Assembly (NCBI RefSeq): GCF_014840935.1 | Contig: NZ_CP062005.1 | Location: 3,224,001-3,288,000, forward strand | Direction: 5' to 3' | Source: Halomonas sp. YLGW01 | Lineage (GTDB): Bacteria > Pseudomonadota > Gammaproteobacteria > Pseudomonadales > Halomonadaceae | DNA: 64,000 nucleotides | Shown: positions 35,909-53,216 of the stretch, one piece after another | Position numbering within the stretch: the first letter of the stretch is position 1 | How the letters are laid out: each line of letters starts with the position of its first letter | Notes under the pieces: generated by a model | Database searches by the model: none | Told to the model about the DNA's origin: nothing | The model's input: only the letters and a program-made list of their open reading frames with translations | Translations under genes and position numbers: made by a program

Positions 35909-36970
35909 ATGCCGCTCGCCCCGTCCTTCGCCCTGCCCGTGCTCACCGCACCAACGCTCGCCGCGGCAGGCGCCTCGACCATCACCCACAGCGACGCGAC
36001 GACCTGGCTGCGCCACGCCCTCGGCGGGCCCACCTGGCTGCACCTGCCGGGGGAGGACGCGAGCCGCTGCCGGGTGATCACCACCCTGCTCCACGGCAAC
36101 GAGCCCTCCGGCGTGCTGGCCCTGCACCGCTGGCTGGGCGAGGCGCCGCGCCCCAGGGTCAGCCTGGCGATCCTGGTGGCCAATGTCGCCGCCGCCCTCG
36201 CCCCGCCGATCTTCACCCATCGCATCGCCCCCGGCGGACGGGATCTCAACCGCTGCTTTCGCCCACCCTTTGGTGATGCCAGCGGCGAGCTGGCTCGGCG
36301 CATCGCCATGGACATCGCCGCCTGGGCACCGGAATGCGTGATCGACCTGCACAACACCTCCGGCAGCGGCCCGGCCTTCGCCGTCGCCCTGGCCCGCGAC
36401 CCCGCCATCGAGCGCCTGGCGAGCCACTTCTGCGACCGACTGATCGTCTCGGACTTCCGGCTTGGCAGCCTGATGGAGCTGCCACTGACCGCCCCGACCC
36501 TCGCCGACTGCCCGATCTTCACCCTCGAATGCGGTGGCGCCCGGGACCCGGCCGCCCTCGAGGTGGCGGCCGACGTCTATCGTCGGCTCGGTGACTGGCC
36601 GGACCTCGCGGCCCTCACCCCCGCCCCCGGCCTCGAGGTGCTGATCCATCCGCTGCGGGTCGAACTGCGCCCCGGTGCTAGCCTCGCCTATGCCCGCGGC
36701 CCGGAGCCCGGCGCCGATATCACCCTCTGGGCCCGCATCGACACCTGCAACCGCGGTATCACCGACCCGACCACCTGCCTCGGCTGGCTCGGTGAGGGGG
36801 GCCTTCGCTACCTGCAGGCCGTCGACGCCCGAGGCAGCGACCGTCTGGGGGAGCTGCTCTGCGCGCGAAACGGCAGGCTCTACCCCCGCCGCCCACTGCG
36901 CCTGTTCATGGCCACCACCAACGCCGAGATCGCCCGCAGCGACTGCCTGTTCTACGCCGTGCCGGAGTGA
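35909..36970 (+). CDS. Succinylglutamate desuccinylase/aspartoacylase family hydrolase
   Basis: A 353-residue zinc-dependent carboxypeptidase-like hydrolase (M14, AspA/AstE family). Zinc ligands lie in LLHGNEPSGVLAL (His, Glu) and CVIDLHNTSGSG (His), the substrate arginine in GGRDLNRCFRP, and the catalytic Glu in IFTLECGG. The family removes acyl groups from acyl-amino acids. It begins 3 bp after the GCS2 gene stop with its own GGAGG, so the two are coupled: one enzyme likely builds an amide and the other opens one. The substrate is unknown. Confidence 0.85.
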   Translation: MPLAPSFALPVLTAPTLAAAGASTITHSDATTWLRHALGGPTWLHLPGEDASRCRVITTLLHGNEPSGVLALHRWLGEAPRPRVSLAILVANVAAALAPPIFTHRIAPGGRDLNRCFRPPFGDASGELARRIAMDIAAWAPECVIDLHNTSGSGPAFAVALARDPAIERLASHFCDRLIVSDFRLGSLMELPLTAPTLADCPIFTLECGGARDPAALEVAADVYRRLGDWPDLAALTPAPGLEVLIHPLRVELRPGASLAYARGPEPGADITLWARIDTCNRGITDPTTCLGWLGEGGLRYLQAVDARGSDRLGELLCARNGRLYPRRPLRLFMATTNAEIARSDCLFYAVPE

Positions 36971-37021: not shown

Positions 37022-40000
37022 TGGTTGAGCCCCGCGCCTGCGGGGATCGGGAGCTGGCCCACATGCGGGCCTGGGCCGAGGCCGGTTGAGCCCCGCGCCT
37101 GCGGGGATCGGACCTTGGCTTTGCCGTCCTCGTCGGTCGCTGGCGGTTGAGCCCCGCGCCTGCGGGGATCGGATCATGCCCAGGGGATTCAGTGCCCCGG
37201 TGATCGGTTGAGCCCCGCGCCTGCGGGGATCGGGGCGGGTGTCATGTGGCAATCTCCTCTGGACGCGGTTGAGCCCCGCGCCTGCGGGGATCGGGATAGC
37301 GGAGTGCGCTCGCAACTCGGGCCGATCGGTTGAGCCCCGCGCCTGCGGGGATCGGCTCGGCGCCGAACTAGCCGCCGGGGCCACCACCGGTTGAGCCCCG
37401 CGCCTGCGGGGATCGGCTCGGCGCCGAACTAGCCGCCGGGGCCACCACCGGTTGAGCCCCGCGCCTGCGGGGATCGGGGCCCTGGCGTCGTCGCGCCAGA
37501 AGCCTTTCACGGTTGAGCCCCGCGCCTGCGGGGATCGGTCCATGACAGCCACCGTGAGTCGTGCAATGACCGGTTGAGCCCCGCGCCTGCGGGGATCGGT
37601 CCGAAATGCGGATTCGAGTTCGATGACTAAGCGGTTGAGCCCCGCGCCTGCGGGGATCGGTCTTGCAGTCGTCAGCGTAGACGCCCCAGCGGCGGTTGAG
37701 CCCCGCGCCTGCGGGGATCGGTCTTGCAGTCGTCAGCGTAGACGCCCCAGCGGCGGTTGAGCCCCGCGCCTGCGGGGATCGGCGGCGGTCATCGTTGCGG
37801 ATCCAGTCGACGAACGGTTGAGCCCCGCGCCTGCGGGGATCGGGATATCGTCGAGCAGTCGGGCAAGAAGGCTCACGGTTGAGCCCCGCGCCTGCGGGGA
37901 TCGGGACTGGGCCGAGGGCACGGTATCCAGCGAAACCGGTTGAGCCCCGCGCCTGCGGGGATCGGGAGCCCCCCGAGGGCATCGAGGAGATCACCATCGG
38001 TTGAGCCCCGCGCCTGCGGGGATCGGGTCGGCGATGTTGTTGCGACGCAGCTTGCCGGCGGTTGAGCCCCGCGCCTGCGGGGATCGGCTTCGCTGACTGC
38101 ACAGAGTTTACTCGCAGTGCGGTTGAGCCCCGCGCCTGCGGGGATCGGGACCTGCCTACGGTCGCCGATGTGCGTCAGACCGGTTGAGCCCCGCGCCTGC
38201 GGGGATCGGGCATCCTTGACCGGCCGGAAGTAGGGGGCAAACGGTTGAGCCCCTCGCCTGCGGGGATCGGTTTGGTCGCTCTGGACGCAGCCCTGGAGGC
38301 GTCGGTTGAGCCCCGCGCCTGCGGGGATCGGTGCGGACGGAAGGTGCGCAGCAGGATATTGCGCGGTTGAGCCCCGCGCCTGCGGGGATCGGTCGCGGCG
38401 GTGGTCTCGCTCATTCGTAGATCTCGGTTGAGCCCCGCGCCTGCGGGGATCGGTTTATGTCAACTGGCGGCGGCGAGCTTAAGGACGGTTGAGCCCCGCG
38501 CCTGCGGGGATCGGATCAGACATGGCCATTTGCAGCGGGTCGCCAACGGTTGAGCCCCGCGCCTGCGGGGATCGGTGCGCCAGCGAATGCGCTATCACCG
38601 ACCTCTACTGGTTGAGCCCCGCGCCTGCGGGGATCGGGACCCCATGATTTCGACCGGTGCGGTCGGGTTCGGTTGAGCCCCGCGCCTGCGGGGATCGGCC
38701 GTTGCGCGTTGCGTGGTGGGATCAGTGGCGCGGTTGAGCCCCGCGCCTGCGGGGATCGGAAAATTTTTTCTTCTTTGGTGAGTTTTCTAGACGGTTGAGC
38801 CCCGCGCCTGCGGGGATCGGAATCGAACGCAGGAAGCCGAAACGATGAAAAACGGTTGAGCCCCGCGCCTGCGGGGATCGGTGCCAGCGCTGGTAGACGA
38901 TGCCGTTCTGGTCCGGTTGAGCCCCGCGCCTGCGGGGATCGGGATGGGTCCAAATTTGGGCCGATTCTAATCATCGGTTGAGCCCCGCGCCTGCGGGGAT
39001 CGGCAGCTAGTCCGCGCCCTGGTGCCAGCCTCCGGCGGTTGAGCCCCGCGCCTGCGGGGATCGGATCGATTATCTCTTGCAACGCCATGCCTGATGCGGT
39101 TGAGCCCCGCGCCTGCGGGGATCGGCTGCCACCGACCCGCGAGGCTGCCCTCGCCTCCGGTTGAGCCCCGCGCCTGCGGGGATCGGACGCCACGGCGGCC
39201 CGTGGCGTCTAGTCACTGCGGTTGAGCCCCGCGCCTGCGGGGATCGGGTCGATGTTGCGGATGTAGTCGCGCAAGGCGCCGGTTGAGCCCCGCGCCTGCG
39301 GGGATCGGCGGATGTCCTCGTCGGTGGCGCCGTTGGCCACCGGTTGAGCCCCGCGCCTGCGGGGATCGGGCTTTTTCGGTCCTCGGCATTGGCCTGGCCT
39401 CCGGTTGAGCCCCGCGCCTGCGGGGATCGGCAGGCGATCGGCGTTAAAACGCAGGCGCTGGGCGGTTGAGCCCCGCGCCTGCGGGGATCGGTCGATGCGT
39501 AGGGTGTCGAAGCGGTGGCAGCGCGGTTGAGCCCCGCGCCTGCGGGGATCGGGCCGACGTAACCCATCATTTCATCACTGACGCCGGTTGAGCCCCGCGC
39601 CTGCGGGGATCGGGTGGCCTCTTGAGCGGACGCGCTGGCCTCGTTCGGTTGAGCCCCGCGCCTGCGGGGATCGGGGCACGATCGTGTAGGTGGTGGTCGG
39701 CTTCTCCGGTTGAGCCCCGCGCCTGCGGGGATCGGCGCGCCACCCCCGGCGCCGCCGGCTGGGATGTCGGTTGAGCCCCGCGCCTGCGGGGATCGGTGAC
39801 GATGCGGCTCTGGTGTTTCGTGATCGGGCGGTTGAGCCCCGCGCCTGCGGGGATCGGCCGCGCGATGAGGCTCTGGCCTACTCGAAGATCGGTTGAGCCC
39901 CGCGCCTGCGGGGATCGGGAATCCGAGATGGGGGCCGTGCCTGCGCTCGACGGTTGAGCCCCGCGCCTGCGGGGATCGGACCACGAAACTCCATCACCGG

Positions 40001-43000
40001 GTCGACCACTCCGGTTGAGCCCCGCGCCTGCGGGGATCGGACATCGGCCATCTCAGCGATGCGTGATTCCAGCGGTTGAGCCCCGCGCCTGCGGGGATCG
40101 GTAGGGCAGCTTGTTGAGGATCGTCTCGTCTACCGGTTGAGCCCCGCGCCTGCGGGGATCGGCGGCTGGGACTGATACGCGGCATGGGGTGTACCGGTTG
40201 AGCCCCGCGCCTGCGGGGATCGGTAGAACTTGCGGTACACGCGATAGGTGCCGCCCGGTTGAGCCCCGCGCCTGCGGGGATCGGGCGGTGGTCACCAGCC
40301 AGCCATTGTCGGTCGCCGGTTGAGCCCCGCGCCTGCGGGGATCGGGAGCACGCTGGCGATGGCCGACCCGATGGCCGCGGTTGAGCCCCGCGCCTGCGGG
40401 GATCGGCTACTCGCTGTCGCTCGCGGGCCTCAGTCGTGCGGTTGAGCCCCGCGCCTGCGGGGATCGGATGTTTGAGACGTGGCTTTCGGTGTGTCCTAAC
40501 GGTTGAGCCCCGCGCCTGCGGGGATCGGACGTTGTAGTAGCTGGGCAGGCTGAGCAGCATCGGTTGAGCCCCGCGCCTGCGGGGATCGGAGGGTGCGGCG
40601 AGTGCCTGCCCCCGAACCGCTCGGTTGAGCCCCGCGCCTGCGGGGATCGGGCGTGGATTATCAACGTCTCAGCATTGGAGATCGGTTGAGCCCCGCGCCT
40701 GCGGGGATCGGCACTACGCCTCTGCCAGCCGTGACGGCGCGCCCGGTTGAGCCCCGCGCCTGCGGGGATCGGTGTCATGTTGGTTGGTGAATGGTTTCAT
40801 GTTGCGGTTGAGCCCCGCGCCTGCGGGGATCGGAAGCACTACGCCGACCAGCTGGCCCTGCACGACGGTTGAGCCCCGCGCCTGCGGGGATCGGGATGTC
40901 GTTCAATGCGGCGGCGATACGTTTGCCGGTTGAGCCCCGCGCCTGCGGGGATCGGCGCAACTCCCGGCGGGCCGCCAGGTCCACGATCGGTTGAGCCCCG
41001 CGCCTGCGGGGATCGGCTGGACCTGATCCTGAAGGCCCGCCAGCTCGGCGGTTGAGCCCCGCGCCTGCGGGGATCGGGCCAAGGCCTTCGAGACCCTGGC
41101 CCGCTCCTCCGGTTGAGCCCCGCGCCTGCGGGGATCGGCGGGTGGCGGGCCTCAAGGCCCTGCGTCAGGCCGGTTGAGCCCCGCGCCTGCGGGGATCGGG
41201 CCAGGCCGATGTGGATAATGTCGATAACGTCGGTTGAGCCCCGCGCCTGCGGGGATCGGGTCGTGCTTCCATAGCCGCTAGAGGTATCGGCCGGTTGAGC
41301 CCCGCGCCTGCGGGGATCGGTAGCGTTCGTCTCCGATGGCGGCGGGCTGATCCGGTTGAGCCCCGCGCCTGCGGGGATCGGGGTTGCCATCGAGTACAGC
41401 GCCGACAACTCGACGGTTGAGCCCCGCGCCTGCGGGGATCGGAGGCTCGGGATCTGGCGCTTGTCACGGATGATCGGTTGAGCCCCGCGCCTGCGGGGAT
41501 CGGGCACCTCAAGGTATCGGACGGTGCCGTCGAGGCGGTTGAGCCCCGCGCCTGCGGGGATCGGACCAGACAGGACGTCTCCGGGGCATCGAAGCCCGGT
41601 TGAGCCCCGCGCCTGCGGGGATCGGGTCTATGGATAGGCTGTAGGTGAGACCGTGGGCGGTTGAGCCCCGCGCCTGCGGGGATCGGTTGAAGCACTGCGT
41701 CCTGATCGGCACTGGCGCCGGTTGAGCCCCGCGCCTGCGGGGATCGGCGAGCGTTGGTCATCGAGGTCTTTTCCCCGGCCGGTTGAGCCCCGCGCCTGCG
41801 GGGATCGGAGCTCGTCCTCATGCTCGAAGATTTCAGCGACCGGTTGAGCCCCGCGCCTGCGGGGATCGGACGCTGCGCGAGGCGCAGATCAACTACGACA
41901 ACGGTTGAGCCCCGCGCCTGCGGGGATCGGGCCGGCGAGGACATCCTGATCACCCGCTCGCACGGTTGAGCCCCGCGCCTGCGGGGATCGGGTCGGTCGC
42001 GGATCAAGCAGCAGAACGAGACGCGGTTGAGCCCCGCGCCTGCGGGGATCGGGGCATCAAGACCACGCTCACCACCGATCAGGACGGTTGAGCCCCGCGC
42101 CTGCGGGGATCGGTACGGCAGTTTGTTGAGGATGGTCTCATCCACCGGTTGAGCCCCGCGCCTGCGGGGATCGGCTAACCAGACAAGCGTTCTCACATCC
42201 TGCCAGCGGTTGAGCCCCGCGCCTGCGGGGATCGGGCGCCAGTACATCGGCGGCATGGACGTTCTAACGGTTGAGCCCCGCGCCTGCGGGGATCGGGCAT
42301 AGGCCTGCAGCTGGGCCTCGGCGCTCTCCGGTTGAGCCCCGCGCCTGCGGGGATCGGGGAAAGCAGCCGGGCAACATGAAGACCGCGACCGGTTGAGCCC
42401 CGCGCCTGCGGGGATCGGCGCTGCGCCTCGACCTCGGCGCTGATAATCGCCGGTTGAGCCCCGCGCCTGCGGGGATCGGAGCACCAGCGGCACCGTCGAG
42501 GGCGAAGACGGCGGTTGAGCCCCGCGCCTGCGGGGATCGGGTCGCCATGTATGAGGAGGATGTGCTGACCAACGGTTGAGCCCCGCGCCTGCGGGGATCG
42601 GCGCGAGGCGCTGGTCGCGACCTATGTCGAACGCGGTTGAGCCCCGCGCCTGCGGGGATCGGCTGAAAGACTATGCCGGCGTGACCGTCGAGAGCGGTTG
42701 AGCCCCGCGCCTGCGGGGATCGGGGCTGCCGTCCGAACCAGTCGGCATAATTGGTCGGTTGAGCCCCGCGCCTGCGGGGATCGGGCCGCCCGCTTCACCC
42801 TGGCGGATACGCTCTACGGTTGAGCCCCGCGCCTGCGGGGATCGGTTGAAGGCTGACGATCGGTGGGCCTCAGGCACCGGTTGAGCCCCGCGCCTGCGGG
42901 GATCGGACATACCCGCTGGAGAAGACGCCCTGGATCGCCGGTTGAGCCCCGCGCCTGCGGGGATCGGGCGTCTCGCTCGCGCTCCGGCAGCAAGCTGATC

Positions 43001-43821
43001 GGTTGAGCCCCGCGCCTGCGGGGATCGGGCAAGGCCGGGGTATTCGCAATCCGGGTCGTGCGGTTGAGCCCCGCGCCTGCGGGGATCGGGTAGACCTCCG
43101 GCATGTCGTGTTCAGCCAGCTCGGTTGAGCCCCGCGCCTGCGGGGATCGGGCTGTAGGGATCGTCGGCACAGGCGATGATCTCGGTTGAGCCCCGCGCCT
43201 GCGGGGATCGGGGAGGTTGAGTGCATTATCCCGCCCTGCGATCGGGTTGAGCCCCGCGCCTGCGGGGATCGGCGACGCCTGTCCTCTCGCTGCGCTGGTG
43301 CTGCCGGTTGAGCCCCGCGCCTGCGGGGATCGGGAGTGGAAGGCGACCGGGCGCGACCCGCGAAACGGTTGAGCCCCGCGCCTGCGGGGATCGGGGCGAG
43401 ACCATCTGCCTGATCGCTCGCCGTAACGGTTGAGCCCCGCGCCTGCGGGGATCGGAAAGAGCTTGGCGTGCGCGCGCAGTGGCTCATCGGTTGAGCCCCG
43501 CGCCTGCGGGGATCGGGCCACCTCGGTGTCGATCTCGAGCGGGCGGCCCGGTTGAGCCCCGCGCCTGCGGGGATCGGACCAGCCTGGTGATCGAGAAGAA
43601 CGGCGACACCGGTTGAGCCCCGCGCCTGCGGGGATCGGCAGCGCGAGTACCCCTCGACCCCCGAGGAGGCCGGTTGAGCCCCGCGCCTGCGGGGATCGGA
43701 TGGAGCTGCTCCCCGATGGAACCATGGAGGACGGTTGAGCCCCGCGCCTGCGGGGATCGGTGGCGGGCACGCTCGGGGTCGATGCCTTCGTACGGTTGAG
43801 CCCCGCGCCTGCGGGGATCGG
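37022..43821 (-). CRISPR. Type I-E CRISPR array, 112 repeats and 111 spacers
   Basis: The 29-bp repeats (CCCCGC...GCGGGG palindromic stem; the crRNA-sense end reads CTCAACCG) recur every 61 bp from 37022 to 43793. I followed every unit: 109 spacers are 32 nt, one is 33 nt (38576-38608) and one is 31 nt (41200-41230). Four repeats differ from the consensus: 38254 (G to T in the stem), and the terminal base at 37022, 38609 and 43244. Orientation is minus, because the reverse complement matches known I-E repeats and the AT-rich leader and cas2 lie at the high-coordinate end. The oldest end, at 37022, contains two tandem-duplicated spacers. Confidence 0.98.
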
Positions 43822-43931
43822 ACTAATCGTAGACGATTGTTTAAAAAGAACAAAATCGCTGGCGGAAAGTCCACCAGCGATTTTGCTCATTATTCGATCA
43901 ATGCAATTTGTTAAAGATCCGATAAAATCAA
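43822..43931 (-). promoter_or_regulatory. AT-rich CRISPR leader with internal hairpin
   Basis: A 110-bp leader between cas2 and the first repeat. It contains a 15-bp inverted repeat (43851-43885, one mismatch, 5-nt loop) followed on the minus strand by TTCTTTTT, which looks like a terminator. A palindrome AATCGT-AG-ACGATT (43825-43838) touches the first repeat. A perfect IHF consensus match (AATCAATTAGTTG) lies at 43926-43938, farther from the junction than the E. coli IHF site. Confidence 0.75.
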
Positions 43932-45147
<1,216 letters not shown>

Positions 45148-45185
45148 CGCGGCCTCCTTGCCGGTGATGTATCAGGGGTGACGAA

Positions 45186-45887
45186 TCAGGGGCGGCGCAC
45201 CAACAGCAGGCCGCAGCCGAAGGCCTTGGCACGCCCCACTCCCTGCGCCAGGGTCTCGATCAGCCGCCCTGGGTCGGTGACCTCCAGCAGCCCCTCGTAG
45301 TCGACGCTGGAGAACTGGATAGCATCGCGCCGCCCGGGCTTGTTCAGGGCGTGCTGCCGATAGGCCCCCACCTCTGGGGCCACCGGCAGACGAAAGCCAC
45401 TGCCCTCGGCGCGGGTCTCGAGCCAGTCGCGTGCGGCGGCATCCATCGCATGCACGCATTCGGTGCTCGTTCGCTGCCCGGGTGGGAAGGGCTTCTTCGC
45501 CGCCATCAGTACGTCGCTGCGCGGCGAGTGCTTGGCGCCTGCCACGCGCCTGGCCACGGTGGGGTTGGCCCGTAGCCGAAAGGCCAGCTGATCGCCGACG
45601 GCTAGCGTCGGGGCGAAGGGCTTGCATTGCACCTCCAGCAGCCCCTGAGAGGCGGCCGGCTCGCGATCGGAGAGCAGATAGAATAGCGGCAGTCCCTTGG
45701 GAGCCTTGTTCTGGCTAGCGTCCCCTTCTTCCATCTCCTGGCGGAACAGGAAGGGGCGCGCGCCGTCATGGCCCGGAAACAGCTGCCACAGCAGCTGGTG
45801 GGCCGCATAAGCGCCGCCCCCCATGATCTCGAACAGGCTTTCGCGGGACAGCCCGTTGAGGTCGACCCTCACACGTGAGAGATACAT
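45186..45887 (-). CDS. cas6e: crRNA endonuclease Cas6e (Cse3/CasE)
   Basis: A 233-residue RAMP endoribonuclease that cuts each repeat of the precursor RNA and stays bound to the crRNA 3' hairpin. The start MYLSRVRVDLNG, the catalytic-region histidine in YAAHQLLWQLFPG, and the glycine-rich GVGRAKAFGCGLLLVRR near the C-terminus are characteristic. The start codon shares one base with the cas5e stop (TGATG). The expected target is the palindromic stem of this locus's repeats; the one stem variant repeat (38254) would lose a base pair. Confidence 0.95.
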   Translation of the reverse strand: MYLSRVRVDLNGLSRESLFEIMGGGAYAAHQLLWQLFPGHDGARPFLFRQEMEEGDASQNKAPKGLPLFYLLSDREPAASQGLLEVQCKPFAPTLAVGDQLAFRLRANPTVARRVAGAKHSPRSDVLMAAKKPFPPGQRTSTECVHAMDAAARDWLETRAEGSGFRLPVAPEVGAYRQHALNKPGRRDAIQFSSVDYEGLLEVTDPGRLIETLAQGVGRAKAFGCGLLLVRRP

Positions 45888-46651
45888 CAGCGCGCCTCCT
45901 TGGCGTTGGCATCGCGGGCGAAGCGCCGATACTCGACGCGCGGCCCGAACTGCCAGCGGCGACGGTTCAGCGGTTGATCCCAGACATCGTTGGATTCCAC
46001 GCCGTGGGCCTCGCCGTCGAGGCGTTCGGCGCCGCCTTCCCAGGCATACATCACCTCATCGGTCAGGCCCAGCGCCAGGCGCTCGGCCCGCTCAGAGTGG
46101 CCGACCAAGGGCGGGAAGCTCGAGTCCAGGGCGTCTCGCAGGCACGCGGCTTCGACCCGTCGAGGCGCCAGCGGCGCCGCCAGCGGGCAGGCCTTGCGCC
46201 CGAGAAACAGCGCGAAGCGGGGGCGCTCGAGCGCTGCCTGCAGCTCCTCGAGCAAGTGCGTGGTACCGTCAGCGCTCCATACCGCGACGGTCCAAAGGCC
46301 GTCGCAGCGATAGTCGCGGCTGGAGAGAATCGTATTGATGGCCTTGCGCGGCGCGTTGAGTTCGTCACTCCGGGTGCGATAGGTCACCTTGGCCTGGGTC
46401 GAGGGCACTTGAGCGGTGTGATAATCCCGCAACAGGGTCCCGGGCGAGCGCTGCTTGACGGCGATGCACACGCTGTCGCCAAACGCCTGCTGGCCGGCAT
46501 CATCATCGCGTCGGATGCCCAGCGCCGCGCCCAGCAGCCCGAGGATCGCGCCGCGCCCGGGGTGGGTGGCGGTGGGGCGCATCTCGCCCACCGCAGCCTC
46601 GCCCCAGCTGGCGAGCGGCGCATAGAGCCGAAAGAGCAGATATTCCGTCAT
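45887..46651 (-). CDS. cas5e: Cascade subunit Cas5e (CasD)
   Basis: A 254-residue RAMP protein that caps the crRNA 5' end in Cascade. The start MTEYLLFRLYAPLASWGE and PTATHPGRGAILGLLGAALGI (family-typical G-rich segment) are clear, and the thumb-like DYHTAQVPSTQAKVTYRTR follows. The start at 46651 has AAGGGGGG upstream, while a longer frame from 46696 would overlap cas7e. It is 10 bp from the cas7e stop. Confidence 0.95.
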   Translation of the reverse strand: MTEYLLFRLYAPLASWGEAAVGEMRPTATHPGRGAILGLLGAALGIRRDDDAGQQAFGDSVCIAVKQRSPGTLLRDYHTAQVPSTQAKVTYRTRSDELNAPRKAINTILSSRDYRCDGLWTVAVWSADGTTHLLEELQAALERPRFALFLGRKACPLAAPLAPRRVEAACLRDALDSSFPPLVGHSERAERLALGLTDEVMYAWEGGAERLDGEAHGVESNDVWDQPLNRRRWQFGPRVEYRRFARDANAKEAR

Positions 46652-46661
46652 GTCGCCCCCC

Positions 46662-47753
46662 TTAACGGCCGGCCTTGAGCCATTCGACCAGCTCACCCAG
46701 GGTGCCCTTGCTCACCTCGCCCGCGAGCGACGGCGTCTCATAGCCGGGCAGCGCGGCGACGACGAAGCGCCGCTCGGCGCCGGCGCCGTAGGCGCCATCG
46801 AACGCGCTGGCCTGAGCCTCGAGGCGCGCGACGGCCTCATCCGCCTGATCCTGGCCGGCAACCGGGCGCAGGAAGGCCGCCGAGAGCGAGCGTGGCTGCT
46901 GGTCGCCCTGCTCGGCGAGCACATAGCTCGCGTAGGCGCGGGAGCCGAAGCTGTTCTGCTTGCCCTTGGGCGAGGTGCGCGTGGCTGCGTCGGCCAGTGC
47001 GGCGATGGCGCGCTCGGCCAGCTCGCTGTCGCCGTCGAGGTTCTCGACCAGCTGGCGGCGATCGATGCAGATATAGGTGTAGAAGAGGCCCGCGGCGAAG
47101 CCGGCCTCGCCGATGTGGGCAGCGCCGCGATCCTCGTCGCCATTATTGAGATCGTCGACGGCGGTGAAGTAGTCGTCTTCCACTTCCGCGGTGTGCACGG
47201 TGATGGCATGCGCCACCTGGCAGGCCGCCTCGACGTTGTACTCCGGCACCGCCGCCAGCATGCGGCCGAACAGGGCGATGTCGGCGGCGGCCGGCGTGTG
47301 GCGCAGCAGCTTCAGGTCGTTTTCCTCCGGCACGCGGTTCTCGGCGACCAGCGTCTCGACCAGGGCGTCCAACGCCGCCAGCTCTTCCGGACCGACGTGC
47401 ACCAGCTGCTCGATCTCGAACTCGTGGGCCTCGCCCTTGCCCGCCTTGCGCAGCTTGCCGAACACGCCGGCGATCTTTTCGGCACACTGCGCGGCGAGCT
47501 TGTCGGCCATGCCGCGCTCGACCAGGCGATCGTAGGCCTGCTTGCCCAAGCGCTTGGTGCGCTGGCCGCGATACTCGCTCAGCGCCTCGGTGAACAGCGA
47601 CGAGGTGCGCCAGGTACGCTTGAGGCTCTGCGACGACACCCGCAGACGCTTGGCGCCGCCCATGATGGCGGTCTTGGGCCGCCCCAGGTCATCGCGATTG
47701 AGGTTGGCCGGCGGGTAGGACGTCAGCAGGTGCAGCTGGATAAAGTGGCTCAT
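46662..47753 (-). CDS. cas7e: Cascade backbone subunit Cas7e (CasC)
   Basis: A 363-residue RAMP protein, six copies of which form the Cascade filament on the crRNA. The conserved start MSHFIQLHLLTSYPPANLNR and MGGAKRLRVSSQSLKRTWR are unmistakable, and later QNSFGSRAYASYVLAE is typical. The start at 47753 fits other Cas7e proteins and has AGGGG 8 nt upstream. An alternative ATG at 47792 overlaps the cse2 stop (ATGA) but lacks a ribosome site. Confidence 0.95.
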   Translation of the reverse strand: MSHFIQLHLLTSYPPANLNRDDLGRPKTAIMGGAKRLRVSSQSLKRTWRTSSLFTEALSEYRGQRTKRLGKQAYDRLVERGMADKLAAQCAEKIAGVFGKLRKAGKGEAHEFEIEQLVHVGPEELAALDALVETLVAENRVPEENDLKLLRHTPAAADIALFGRMLAAVPEYNVEAACQVAHAITVHTAEVEDDYFTAVDDLNNGDEDRGAAHIGEAGFAAGLFYTYICIDRRQLVENLDGDSELAERAIAALADAATRTSPKGKQNSFGSRAYASYVLAEQGDQQPRSLSAAFLRPVAGQDQADEAVARLEAQASAFDGAYGAGAERRFVVAALPGYETPSLAGEVSKGTLGELVEWLKAGR

Positions 47754-47788
47754 GGTTAAAACCCCTGTGTCATGAGTGATGTCGGTGG

Positions 47789-48472
47789 TCATTTCGCGTC
47801 GCGCTGATAGGTGGCCAGCGTAGTGAAATAGTCGTGGGCCCAGCGAAAGGCCAGACGGTCGTCGGTGCGCCGCGAACGCGGCAGATCGCTCGCTTGTTCC
47901 CGGTGCCATAGCAGGATGTCGTCGGCGAGATTGACCGCGCTGATGCCTTCTTTGCCAACCAGCGCCAGGCCACGCCGCAGCCGGCGGGTCAATTCGTCGC
48001 TGGTGTGGCTTTGCTGCAGCTGCTGGAAGCGCAGCTCGCTGACCAGCGGCTTGCCGGTTTCGGCCTTTTGCTCACCGAACCGGTGGCCGAGGGTCGCGGC
48101 GGATTTCTCGGAGCCTAGCTCGGCCAGCACCGTGGCGACACTCGCCCAGGCCTGCATGTCGCGGCGCCGATAGGCGGGCATATCGGCAGGTTCGGCGGCA
48201 TCCACATCCAGCATCTGCCAGAGCTTGCGGAAACCTTCGGTGAGCACGGCGGCTTCCGGTGTTGCGCAACGACGCAGCACCGCCCTGACGCCACGCGGCC
48301 ATGGCGGCGGCAGCCGGCGCTCCCGAGCCTCGGCGTCGCTCAGCGTCAGCCGCTGCCACCATAGGCGCACCACCCGACGTTCGTCATCACTCAGCAAGCG
48401 TGCGCGCTTCGCCTCCTTGGCGAGCGCCGGGGTGTCCTCGTCGAAACGGCTGTCTGCCACTGCCTCATTCAT
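47789..48472 (-). CDS. cse2: Cascade small subunit Cse2 (CasB, Cas11)
   Basis: A 227-residue helical protein forming the two-copy Cascade belly that stabilises the displaced DNA strand. WWQRLTLSDAEARERR, ALRRCATPEAAVL and FGEQKAETGKPLVSELRFQQL are recognisable family segments, as is the C-terminal WAHDYFTTLATYQRD. It overlaps cse1 by eight bases. It is somewhat longer than E. coli Cse2 (about 160 aa), with an added hydrophilic N-terminus. Confidence 0.93.
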   Translation of the reverse strand: MNEAVADSRFDEDTPALAKEAKRARLLSDDERRVVRLWWQRLTLSDAEARERRLPPPWPRGVRAVLRRCATPEAAVLTEGFRKLWQMLDVDAAEPADMPAYRRRDMQAWASVATVLAELGSEKSAATLGHRFGEQKAETGKPLVSELRFQQLQQSHTSDELTRRLRRGLALVGKEGISAVNLADDILLWHREQASDLPRSRRTDDRLAFRWAHDYFTTLATYQRDAK

Positions 48473-50156
48473 GGGCCTTCTCCTTGTCGTCTACCGGATG
48501 CTGCAAGGGGCGCAGGTCAAAACCACCCCTATCGGCGAAATGTGCCACGCTATTGCGGCCCTTGCCGCCGCCCAGGAACCAGAACAGCAGGAACTGTCGC
48601 GCACGCACCAGGCGCTTCATGTCCATGTCCTCCATGGGGCCGGACAGCGCGTGGGCGTCGAACAGCCGTAACGCCTGACGGCGCAGGGCGAGGTACCAGT
48701 CCCGCGCCGCCTCCGCGGGCACTAGAGCCTCAACGCCACCATCACGCAGTACCTCGCCGAGGCGGCGCAGGACGCGGAAGAAATCGGCCTGGGTTGCCTC
48801 ATAGAACTGCTTGTCGAGATAGCCAAGATCGCCCTTGGCATCCTGGGGGCGCTTGAACCAGGCCATCTTGACCTGGTCACGCAACTTGCCGGCCGCTTCC
48901 TGGGCCAGCCCTACGAAGTTCTTCACCCATTCTCGCAGCCGCTCCTGCTGCTCGGCGGGCACGGCCACCAGCGGCATCTCGAGGCTGTACCAGCCTCTCG
49001 CCTTCATATTGTCCATGTCATAGCCGAAGGCCCACAGCCGGACGGGCAACAGCAACCGCTCGACGGCCATGCCCGACTGCAGGTCCTCCCGGTTGATGCG
49101 CACCTTGTCGGACAGGTAATCGACGACCACCGCCGCCGGCAGAGCCCCGCTGTCGCTGGCATCGTCGAGCACGAAGCCTGCCCAGTGTCGATAGCCGAGG
49201 CCGTCATCCTGTGGCTTGCGGGAATACGGCAGCTCCTGGGGCTTCTTGGGGTTGCAGCGATAGGGCGTCAGCGGGTGCCGCCAGGCACCGTCATAGTTGG
49301 CCCCATAGTTCTTGGCACGAATCTCGCTTATCCGATGCTCGGCCTGACGACCACAGAGCTGACAGCGACAGGGGCTGTCCTCCACCAGCAGGCGAAAGCG
49401 CCGCGGCATGGCCCAATAGGCATGCAACGGGTGCACATCGCCGGGCAGCACTTCCGTGCCTGGCTTGTCACTGACCCGTGTCGGGCCCATCCAGGGGAAG
49501 ATGGCGGCGTCGTCTGCCTTGGGGGCGGTATGCGCCTGCCCGTCGGCGGTGATACGCGCCGGCGGCAGGACGTTGAGCCACAGCTTGTGCCACAGGCTGG
49601 CCTCGGGATCGTCCGGCAGGATCAGGGTAGTCAGTGGTCCGCCGCCGCGCAGCCCGACGCGGACCCCGGCGCCACCCGCCGGCGCGCTGATCTGCATGGT
49701 GAACAGTGCAATGGCCGTGCAGTCCCGACAGATCTCGTCGGCGATCCCCCGCTTGATGAAGTGATCGATGTTCTTCTTTCGAGTGCTTTCTCCGGGTGCC
49801 TCGATCAACAACGCGGCTACCGTCGAGGGAGCCGTTTGCTCCAGCGGGTCCAGGTCCTGCATGAAGCGCGGCCCATCGCCATCCAGTGCGAAGGCGCCGG
49901 CAAAGGGAGCGAAGGCATCCTTCAGCTCGTCTTCGGTGGGGAGTGCCTCGAACCGTTCGGTCCAGTCCATGCCATCTTCCGGGGACAGGGCCGTTTGCAG
50001 CAGACCGATCAGCCATTGATAGGCCGCGCCCTGGAAATCAGCACGCGGGAAGGCCAGATCGATGACCTCGGGGTCAGCGATGGCTGCCGGCGGACGGTAG
50101 AGAATGCTGTCGTCGCGGTGGCGAAACGGCAGCCAGGGGGCGCTTAACAGATTCAA
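48465..50156 (-). CDS. cse1: Cascade large subunit Cse1 (CasA, Cas8e)
   Basis: A 563-residue subunit that recognises the PAM and recruits Cas3. The start NLLSAPWLPFRHRDDS and the zinc-type cysteines (CRDC, then CRCQLCGR) with ISEIRAKNYGANYDGAWRHPLTPYR are typical of Cas8e, and GPRFMQDLDP also fits. The start codon is TTG at 50156, supported by AAGGAG 6 nt upstream, an uncommon initiator that may lower expression. It lies 51 bp after cas3. Confidence 0.94.
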   Translation of the reverse strand: MNLLSAPWLPFRHRDDSILYRPPAAIADPEVIDLAFPRADFQGAAYQWLIGLLQTALSPEDGMDWTERFEALPTEDELKDAFAPFAGAFALDGDGPRFMQDLDPLEQTAPSTVAALLIEAPGESTRKKNIDHFIKRGIADEICRDCTAIALFTMQISAPAGGAGVRVGLRGGGPLTTLILPDDPEASLWHKLWLNVLPPARITADGQAHTAPKADDAAIFPWMGPTRVSDKPGTEVLPGDVHPLHAYWAMPRRFRLLVEDSPCRCQLCGRQAEHRISEIRAKNYGANYDGAWRHPLTPYRCNPKKPQELPYSRKPQDDGLGYRHWAGFVLDDASDSGALPAAVVVDYLSDKVRINREDLQSGMAVERLLLPVRLWAFGYDMDNMKARGWYSLEMPLVAVPAEQQERLREWVKNFVGLAQEAAGKLRDQVKMAWFKRPQDAKGDLGYLDKQFYEATQADFFRVLRRLGEVLRDGGVEALVPAEAARDWYLALRRQALRLFDAHALSGPMEDMDMKRLVRARQFLLFWFLGGGKGRNSVAHFADRGGFDLRPLQHPVDDKEKAHE

Positions 50157-50207
50157 GGCGAGCTCCTTTCGAACATCGGTTGGGTGGGAAAAGCAACAGT
50201 CCGGCGT

Positions 50208-52886
50208 TTAGTCATCGGCGCTGTCCTCGCGGCCAAAGCAAATTCCATAACGGGTGTCGTAATGGCAGGCAGCATCGTTTTCCACCAGCCAGGGCTGAAC
50301 GAACCGCAGGGATTTTTCGCGTTCCTGGAGCGCTTCCCAGGCGGGCTGATAGTCGGCCGGCAGGGCCGCCAGATTCTTCGCCTGCGACTCCCGCAGCCGC
50401 AGCTGGCTGAGCATCGCGGCATGGCGAACGCCGTCATGCCATAGCCGCAATCGGCCCGGTCCGGCAGGCGCCAGCAACACGACATTGACGTTCGGCTCAT
50501 CCATCAGCCGGGTGCCGATCTCCACTTCCTCGCTCCATTGATTGCCGCTGAGATAACCGTCGTCCAGCGGCAGGGCGTGATAGGTGGCGAGGCCAGCATC
50601 CTTACGTTGCTTGCTGCTGTGCTCGAGGCGGCTCTGCTCCAGTTCCGCCGGCACTTGTTCGATATCGGCGCCATAGACACCCTCGATCAGCGCCCGGGCC
50701 TGCTCCGGCAAGCGGATACCACCCAGCTGGCGCAGTACGCGCTGGGTCAACCAGCATAAGGACGTATCGCGATAGACCGCATGGGTACCGGGCAGGAAAC
50801 GCTGCAGCCAGTCCGCATCGGGGGCCTCGGTCCATTCGGGAGCCAGTACCAGTAGCCGAGGGGCTTCACGCTGCCCACGCTGGTGGCGCTGCAGGCGTCC
50901 GGCGCGCTGGATCAGCAGGTCGATGGGAGCCAGGTCGCTGACCATGAGGTCGACATCGCAGTCGAGCGACTCCTGGAAGACCTGAGTGCTGATCAGCACC
51001 TGCCCCTGACGTGCCTCGGGCGTGGAGTCCTTGCCCAGGCGCTCGAGCACCCTGGCTTCCCGCTGCTGTCGGTCGGCCATGGTGAAGCGGCTATGAAAGA
51101 GCAGGCAGCGCTCGGGCGCCGGATGGCACCCGCGTACCGCCTCGAAGGCGCGAATCGCATCGTCGACGGTGTTGCGTACCCAGGCCACGCATTGGCCCTT
51201 CGCCACCGCGTCGAGAACCACGGCGGTGGCGTCTTCCTCGGTGCTCAGCCACTCGGTCTGCACTTCGCGACTGACTTCGGCCCGGGCGGCCACCGGGACT
51301 TCCTGGTAGCCTTCCCGGAATAGCTGGGTCAGCAGCGGAAAGTCATCCTCGAGCATCGGCGCCGACTCGACTGACAGGCCGGCGCTCCAGGCGTCGGCCA
51401 GGGACTGGCGCATCTGCCGCGGCAACGTGGCAGTCAGCAGAATGGCGCTGCCCCCCTGGCGAGCGTGATAGGTCAGCAGGCGCTGCAGCAGCTGCTGCAT
51501 GTAGATGTCGTAGGCGTGCACCTCGTCGACGATCAACACCTTGCGGGCCAGCCCGTAGAGCCGCAGCGACTGATGACGAAAGGCCAGCACGCTCATCAGC
51601 ACCTGATCGACGGTGCCCACGCCCACATCGGCCAGCAGCGCTTTCTTGCGCGAATCGGCGAGCCAGTGATTGCATTGGTAGGAGGCGCTGTACTCATCGG
51701 GTTGGTAGTTGCGGTCCACTGGCTGCTCGTGGCCCAGCGCCCTAGCGAAGTCCTCGTTCAGCTCGCGCGCGCCATGCGCCAGCACGAAGGAGGGGGCAGA
51801 GGCCGGCGTGTAGAAGCGTCGATGCAGCGCACCGAGACGCGCATACATGGCGTTAGAGGTCGCCATGGTGGGCAGCGCGAAATAAAGGCCTTCTGCATGA
51901 CCATCCGCCAGCAATCGCTGAGCCAGGATACAGGCGGCTTCCGTCTTGCCGGCGCCGGTGATGTCCTCAAGGATGAACAGCTGCGATCCCGAGGGCAGCT
52001 CCGCCTGCTCGGCCTGGTGCTGCAACGGCGTCGGTTCGACCGGCTGACCATCGAACCAGCTCGCCATTCCAGCGTACGCAACTGGCACCGGCGGTTGGCC
52101 GAACCCGAAAGCCGTCAGCGCTTCCCCGGCTCGCCGCTTGGCAAGCGCCCAGTATTCGGCCAAGGGCATCGGCCGGTCATGGTAGGGAAAGTGCCCTTGA
52201 TGGGAGCCGATCCAGTCGCAGAGCACCGCCCAGCCCGCTAGCTGCCAGCTCAGCGGTTTGAGGGCCTCATGCCAGGCGGGAGACAAGAGCTGCACCTGTG
52301 ACCATGGCACCTCGCTGAGCCGGCACCACTCGGCGATGAAGGCCGAGGCTGCCTGGACGTCATCACCACTCGCATCGCTGCCGAAAAAATCACGCATGTT
52401 AAGGCCGTTGCCCGCCACCGGCTTGCCGTGGTGGCCGAACATCGGCGTCAACAGGGTGCTGAACGTCCTGGAAAGCTGGTCACGCTCGCGTCGCCCGGGC
52501 GGGCTTCCTGGCCAGTTCAGCACCCCGTCCTTCAGCCATTCCATCCAACACTCTTGCCACAGCAGAGCACCCAGCCGGTCGTGACGCTGGCTGTACGCGA
52601 AGCGGGGCAAAGCAGGCACCATTTCGTTTTCTTGCGACTGGGCAAGCCCCTGGAAAGCCCGCGAAAACTTGCCGAGATCGTGAAGTCCCAGCAGGAAGAC
52701 GAAAAAACGTCGCAGCGCCTCGGGCGCTATATCCAACTGCGCCGCCATGCGCTGAGTCAGCGCCCGTTCAGGCGACAGCAATTGCCAGCCGACGGCGGCT
52801 ACATCGAGGCTGTGATATGGCAGCAGATGGTAAGGAGCACCGTCGCCTGCTGGCTTGGCCTTGCCCCAATAGCGGTAGTAACTCAC
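50208..52886 (-). CDS. cas3: CRISPR helicase-nuclease Cas3, type I-E
   Basis: An 892-residue enzyme that unwinds and degrades DNA marked by Cascade. The N-terminal HD nuclease (YHSLDVAAVGW, then GLHDLGKFSRAF, then FGHHGKP) is followed by an SF2 helicase with Walker A GAGKTEAA, DEVHAYD and ILLTATLP, and motif VI VSDLAPIDLLIQRAGRLQRH. The start is taken as GTG at 52886 (SYYRYWGKAK next), because AAGGGAG lies 8 nt upstream and the length then matches E. coli Cas3 (888 aa). It opens the cas operon. Confidence 0.95.
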   Translation of the reverse strand: MSYYRYWGKAKPAGDGAPYHLLPYHSLDVAAVGWQLLSPERALTQRMAAQLDIAPEALRRFFVFLLGLHDLGKFSRAFQGLAQSQENEMVPALPRFAYSQRHDRLGALLWQECWMEWLKDGVLNWPGSPPGRRERDQLSRTFSTLLTPMFGHHGKPVAGNGLNMRDFFGSDASGDDVQAASAFIAEWCRLSEVPWSQVQLLSPAWHEALKPLSWQLAGWAVLCDWIGSHQGHFPYHDRPMPLAEYWALAKRRAGEALTAFGFGQPPVPVAYAGMASWFDGQPVEPTPLQHQAEQAELPSGSQLFILEDITGAGKTEAACILAQRLLADGHAEGLYFALPTMATSNAMYARLGALHRRFYTPASAPSFVLAHGARELNEDFARALGHEQPVDRNYQPDEYSASYQCNHWLADSRKKALLADVGVGTVDQVLMSVLAFRHQSLRLYGLARKVLIVDEVHAYDIYMQQLLQRLLTYHARQGGSAILLTATLPRQMRQSLADAWSAGLSVESAPMLEDDFPLLTQLFREGYQEVPVAARAEVSREVQTEWLSTEEDATAVVLDAVAKGQCVAWVRNTVDDAIRAFEAVRGCHPAPERCLLFHSRFTMADRQQREARVLERLGKDSTPEARQGQVLISTQVFQESLDCDVDLMVSDLAPIDLLIQRAGRLQRHQRGQREAPRLLVLAPEWTEAPDADWLQRFLPGTHAVYRDTSLCWLTQRVLRQLGGIRLPEQARALIEGVYGADIEQVPAELEQSRLEHSSKQRKDAGLATYHALPLDDGYLSGNQWSEEVEIGTRLMDEPNVNVVLLAPAGPGRLRLWHDGVRHAAMLSQLRLRESQAKNLAALPADYQPAWEALQEREKSLRFVQPWLVENDAACHYDTRYGICFGREDSADD

Positions 52887-53216
52887 CCACGAACTCCCTT
52901 TCGTATTGAGATTACCCCACTCATATAAGCATCCGATCTTCTTCCCTGCCACCACTCGCATTACTGAGCAGACACTCACTCTGACTGAGGTGGCGCGCAT
53001 CATACTTTTTCGGAGGCCCATGGCGCCCCAAGCCCTTAACGCCTTCTGTTTTAGCGCCACGCCCTCTCAAGACGTTCTGCCATACGAAGCAGATTCTGGG
53101 TCTATCGTTCACTTACCCGCCGTCTCTCTGGCCTCGAGAGACTTTGTTATGTTATAACCTCCGCCCTATCTCAAGCCCGATCCCCTCGTCCAAGACCCCA
53201 CTCAAGAGATCGCACC
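52887..53216. other. Divergent region between the cas and zinc-transport operons
   Basis: About 330 bp carrying control DNA for both operons. On the cas side TATGAT at 52999-53004 (minus strand) is a possible -10 with no good -35. On the znu side is the Zur-like box at 53145-53159. No further gene was seen. Confidence 0.5.
53145..53159 (+). promoter_or_regulatory. Zur-box-like operator of the zinc operon
   Basis: TGTTATGTTATAACC fits the core of the proteobacterial Zur site (TGTTAT-N3-ATAACA) with one arm mismatch. It lies 57 bp before the His-rich ORF, as expected for zinc repression of znu genes. Confidence 0.65.

Follow-up and report, generated by a model that had tools for sequence, protein, structure and literature searches.

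Does a type I-E CRISPR array of more than a hundred units, with hardly any variation among its repeats, mark a system that is still acquiring spacers? The question is raised by a 64,000-nucleotide stretch of the Halomonas sp. YLGW01 chromosome (NZ_CP062005.1, 3,224,001-3,288,000; hereafter the window, to which all positions refer unless stated otherwise). The original prediction had described the array, from so little repeat decay beside a complete cas set, as still acquiring spacers and as a rich record of past invaders. A recount by script reproduced its coordinates (37022-43821) and its figures exactly: 112 repeats of 29 nt and 111 spacers, with four deviating repeats and two spacers of variant length. 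The other 108 repeats are exact, while repeats 10, 86, 92 and 112, numbered from the leader, each carry a single-base change. The spacers are 32 nt long in 109 of 111 cases, the exceptions being S43 (31 nt; 41200-41230) and S86 (33 nt). Palindromic 29-nt repeats separated by spacers of about 32 nt are those of type I-E. A pattern search of the entire genome, a single contig of 3.45 Mb, with the repeat core at up to three mismatches likewise returned 112 copies, on one strand throughout and, among the matches listed (about the first 100), all inside the array. Tandem Repeats Finder split the array over many overlapping rows and gave no one count.

Transcription is assigned to the minus strand because of the position of the cas genes and the leader and the orientation of the repeats. 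The leader lies on the right side, and S1 (43761-43792) is the leader-end spacer. By script, two pairs of neighbouring spacers proved identical, S100 with S101 (37661-37753) and S105 with S106 (37356-37448), and such units could be duplicated assembly. That the length of the array is an artefact of assembly or counting is nevertheless rejected as barely conceivable, given 109 distinct spacers, a genome in a single contig and relatives with equal or longer arrays.

The original prediction had also taken the length as remarkable, a reading that comparison did not sustain. In the available part of the survey PMC5575924, type I-E arrays average 30 spacers, with the median at 19 and the third quartile at 37, and the figures end with 239, which we read as the maximum. 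Our own comparison set comprised 46 arrays of at least eight repeats, from 45 of 80 relatives' loci plus the window; the other 35 loci had no such array by the searched core, and several counted arrays end where the locus ends. The window array is the fifth longest of the 46, behind L027 and L029 (at least 157 repeats each, reaching the locus end), L021 (150) and L033 (114), so that three arrays have at least 150 repeats. Thus, 111 spacers lie in the upper tail for type I-E but are ordinary among the relatives and not exceptional in Halomonadaceae. Near-uniform repeats also recur, with 156 of 157 exact in L027 and 145 of 150 in L021; L036, with 84 of 108, and L048, with 37 of 72, are examples of less uniform arrays. 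Like the window, other Halomonadaceae I-E loci such as L021, L027 and L029 combine long, near-uniform arrays with a related leader and its hairpin, the array beginning 110-130 bases after cas2.

Because new repeats are copies, their uniformity says nothing about present acquisition. It gives no date, and would also be seen in an array that an active I-E system built by copying and that has since stayed intact but frozen, acquisition having ceased. The state of the cas genes bears on this alternative. A full type I-E set lies right of the leader in one locus, on the minus strand: cas2e (43932-44225; TIGR01873), cas1e (44227-45147; TIGR03638), cas6e (45186-45887; TIGR01907), cas5e (45887-46696; TIGR01868), cas7e (46662-47909 as the open frame is listed; TIGR01869), cse2 (47789-48472; TIGR02548), cse1 (48465-50156; TIGR02547) and cas3 with its HD and helicase parts (50208-53060; TIGR01587, TIGR01596). 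Each of the eight matched I-E or Cas3 family models at E 4.5e-31 or better, in accord with the complete set that had been predicted beside the array, and all eight frames are full length as judged by family match. The true start of cas7e is probably further in, since its family match begins at residue 56. Cas1e aligned over nearly its full length with the solved Cas1 3nkd and has E, H and D at the positions that we take to be catalytic in E. coli Cas1 (E141, H208 and D221). Cas3 aligned with 4q2c in the HD region, weakly (21.8 bits), and also in the helicase part. Full-length frames and a conserved Cas1 active site speak against a frozen array. Separately, comparison of the window operon (43932-53060) with 50 relatives' loci revealed that identity drops along it, from mostly near 90% in cas1 and cas2 to mostly 42-54% in cse2 and mostly 52-68% in cse1 and cas3.

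Spacer content in relatives points the same way. Onishia taeanensis As1101 (L012), of the same genus, has an identical repeat, an almost identical leader and a Cas1 that is 99% identical, whereas its Cas3, Cse1 and Cse2 are only 66%, 61% and 50% identical. Nevertheless, the stretches holding its two arrays contained no match to any window spacer within eight mismatches, so that the comparison with related strains that had been proposed as a check turned up, for this same-genus strain, no shared spacer. Nor did we see near-identical spacers in the arrays of the other relatives. Related spacers with 4-6 or more mismatches do occur, for S29 in L046, S31 in L041, S90 in L036 and S99 in L029, and from their sequences they resemble the products of independent sampling of the same phage genes.

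The locus itself is unevenly distributed in the genus. Cas3 is present in two of seven genus genomes, the window's own included, and the zinc-transporter permease that adjoins cas3 in the window is present in all seven. On the distal side, the array is adjoined by an AstE/AspA-like gene (35909-36970) for which a search of the seven genus genomes gave, besides itself, a single weak match, at 31% identity; being nearly absent from them, it places a variable region at the array's distal border. The Onishia genome G006 (contig C66, 75000-114000; L110, L111) has two I-E arrays. One adjoins a complete cas set whose Cas1, Cas3 and Cse2 are 99%, 66% and 50% identical to those of the window, and the other adjoins a fragment of cas2, pieces of a broken cas3 and the zinc-transporter permease. 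This layout would fit the loss of an older I-E locus from the site that the window's locus occupies, and the arrival of another next to it.

What the spacers record was explored by searches against phage, plasmid and prophage DNA. With named phages, the whole array gave 62 records at E of 10 or less, mostly at chance level, the best being the LUZ100 RNA polymerase for S12 (E 4e-3). Genomes of the genus and the family yielded prophage-like matches, and related viral contigs were fetched using genes of the matched prophages and phages. The 109 distinct spacers (two duplicates removed) were scanned against 383 phage or prophage loci (5.8 Mb), which gave 197 places for 23 spacers at up to six mismatches; 19, 13 and 9 spacers were matched at up to five, four and three mismatches, respectively. 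Three control sets, two of them equivalent, gave no match at up to six mismatches; looser limits populate them, with one match in each of the three at seven mismatches and two at eight. A degenerate pattern added S1, with 3, 4, 4 and 6 mismatches in four contigs, and the same approach gave no match for S2 in viral contigs. In total, 24 of the 109 distinct spacers have a counterpart in tailed-phage or prophage-like DNA at up to six mismatches, a share that is biased because the scanned loci were picked through first matches, and the other 85 had no match. The predicted rich record of invaders therefore holds in that several phage groups are represented, and is narrowed by the 85 spacers with no target. 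The listed plasmid matches (40 of 165 records) look like CRISPR arrays of other species that share the repeat rather than protospacers. As to self-targeting, a search of the own genome beyond the array gave a best E of 0.011 and nothing near perfect among the 40 of 88 candidates that were scored.

The matched DNA falls into several groups, labelled here by query genes and PHROG names and not by phage taxonomy. One group comprises phages whose terminase resembles that of Burkholderia phage DC1; it is matched by S3 (43639-43670), with one mismatch to a prophage terminase gene and an AAG PAM, and by S45 and S46 (41017-41109) in the same terminase gene (L409); S13 and S104 match contigs related to this group. 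LUZ100-like T7-type phages account for S11, S12, S21, S33, S35 and S61, of which S11 and S12 (43090-43182) lie in their RNA polymerase genes. P2-like prophages are matched by S89 and S90 (38332-38424), at the terminase end and in the portal region, and once by S41. To the lambda-like group, meaning prophages with a phrog_15-type terminase, belong S4, S77 and S107, S29 and S105, and S52 and S99, the last two in one prophage of genome G003; S4, S107, S29 and S105 all match a single contig, IMGVR_UViG_3300027082_000002 (L122 and L504). The four loci of S1 lie in tailed phages, in a gene for head scaffolding (seen in L519). The match of S4 in genome G001 lies near a helicase-like gene outside any recognised phage, and its assignment to phage rests on the lambda-like match. 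The matches of S25 and S41 are weak, as is that of S14 (one locus, four mismatches, a gene of unknown function), and S14 and S25 fall outside the named groups. The gene targeted by S29 (L417:7246-8901) resembles a RecE-type exonuclease with, at its C-terminal end, a match to families of inhibitors of the host RecBCD nuclease.

The flanks of the protospacers are those of a type I-E system, with AAG or a similar PAM on the 5' side and G at position -1. G precedes the best match of 11 of 13 spacers at up to four mismatches and of 18 of 23 at up to six, and AAG, the commonest PAM, does so in 6 of 13 and 9 of 23; for S1, CAG precedes the match in all four contigs. More distant homologous places often have no G (for S3, AAC at 17 of 35; for S46, AAC or AAA at 31 of 63), and for S11 AAG stands at none of five places in the 383-locus scan. 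In each of the adjacent pairs S11/S12, S45/S46 and S89/S90, both spacers match the same phage group and strand, at distances of about 0.6, 1.3 and 0.3 kb, of which the first and last are estimated from offsets in different contigs. Primed acquisition would give such a pattern. Overall, three of seven adjacent pairs share a phage group, a number that does not reach significance (p 0.13, or 0.05 when positions are random).

Spacer order bears further on whether acquisition has ceased. The further a spacer lies from the leader, the higher its best mismatch number tends to be (Spearman 0.49, p 0.018, n=23), so that leader-near spacers tend to match better; the trend is only suggestive because the loci were chosen through first matches. 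Most spacers' best targets are mismatched, with none of the 24 matched spacers perfect in the loci scanned, as an array frozen for some time would also show. Weighed against the intact cas frames, the Cas1 residues and the absence of any spacer in common with Onishia taeanensis As1101, we consider a frozen array unlikely. The claim of continuing acquisition is thus kept on other grounds than its original one: repeat uniformity is no evidence for it, and the cas set, the Cas1 residues and the unshared spacers suggest that acquisition probably continues.

The four deviating repeats, located by script, are informative about how units were added. Three of them are changed only at base 29: repeat 10 (G to C; 43244-43272), repeat 86 (G to A; 38576-38637 together with the 33-nt spacer S86) and repeat 112 at the leader-distal end (G to A; 37022-37050). 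Repeat 92, with C to A at position 17 (38242-38270), is the sole ordinary internal repeat mutation. In E. coli type I-E, the PAM of the incoming spacer supplies the last repeat base, according to the available part of PMC3338789, and the available part of PMC8482600 likewise states this origin. Among the internal repeats of the 46 arrays, 62 of 64 variants at position 29 are isolated, as against 97 of 610 at positions 1-28, where 513 are common to a neighbour, for the most part in arrays whose repeats come in mixed alleles (L075 and L048, for example); these tests set aside the final repeat of every array, and hence repeat 112. By position, base 29 has 62 isolated variants, and no other base has more than 11. 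Position-29 variants, moreover, adjoin 33-nt spacers in 11 of 64 cases versus 85 of 2722 (odds ratio 6.4, p 7.5e-6), and G is the first base in 10 of the 11 spacers concerned. A G-initial 33-nt spacer suggests a one-base slip of the PAM, as in repeat 86 and S86, whose two changes are probably one event. The isolated variants and their link to 33-nt spacers thus indicate, indirectly, that the last repeat base of these I-E arrays apparently comes from the PAM. For the reading of I-E arrays in general, a lone change at position 29 would more likely record that the spacer was acquired behind an unusual PAM than that the repeat has decayed.

The leader (43822-43931, minus strand) occupies the interval between cas2e and repeat 1 and was aligned with 38 relatives' leaders. 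It contains a terminator-like hairpin (43848-43888, minus strand; stem prediction), 27-67 bases upstream of repeat 1, which is kept with compensatory changes in the I-E leaders of Halomonadaceae and Ectothiorhodospira. Over 14 pairs in 37 leaders (36 distinct; L057 and L058 of the 39 were left out as unalignable), 94.8% of the cells in the distinct leaders pair. Thirteen cells are changed on both sides, versus 3.2 in shuffles, and none of 500 shuffles reached as high; the covariation score is 0.275, versus at most 0.191 when the hairpin is slid. On two weaker measures, 39 and 35 of 500 shuffles came as high. Because of its T-rich tail and its location after cas2, the hairpin is most simply a terminator of the cas operon. 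In E. coli type I-E, an IHF site lies near the leader-repeat junction. No IHF consensus was found near that junction in the window; 11 of the 39 leaders have an exact consensus, and only at -117 to -105, where it overlaps the end of cas2. A sigma-70-like promoter was not found in the leader either. It is conceivable, though very improbable, that the hairpin is more than a terminator and serves as an adaptation element, which would replace the IHF arrangement of E. coli as a docking site for Cas1-Cas2 or a host factor and would help these bacteria to build very long arrays. In G006, the leader recurs at the second array but is accompanied there by a cas2 fragment, so the hairpin is not separable from a terminator. 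Titles and abstract beginnings on I-E leaders, spacer acquisition and IHF or on Halomonas and Halomonadaceae CRISPR, among the matches listed, do not mention such a hairpin.

Having read the hairpin as most simply a terminator, we return to the locus as a whole, whose order of cas genes is of the same kind as in E. coli type I-E. The two also share the eight cas families, 29-nt repeats, 32-nt spacers and a PAM that is mostly AAG, while repeat and leader differ, and no IHF consensus was found near the leader-repeat junction of the window. In light of the available part of PMC3338789, the last repeat base is apparently PAM-derived in both, and the window array is much longer than the K-12 loci of 12 and 6 spacers. 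By analogy with the known I-E biochemistry, Cas1-Cas2 would insert PAM-selected fragments at the leader end, on the right side, each fragment's PAM providing the last repeat base; Cas6e would cut the minus-strand transcript, Cascade (Cse1, Cse2, Cas7, Cas5 and Cas6) would find the protospacer, and Cas3 would degrade the target. Growth of the array may come partly from primed acquisition from recurring phages.

Judged from sequence, we are therefore highly confident that this is an intact, phage-fed type I-E system whose array is probably still growing, perhaps partly by primed acquisition. It appears as a system of a known type, well preserved, with a long array that is ordinary for Halomonadaceae and whose sequence gives good evidence of earlier contact with phages. 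The array is an ordered record of the phage encounters of a halophile, one that covers prophages with DC1-like terminases, LUZ100-like T7-type phages, and P2-like and lambda-like prophages.
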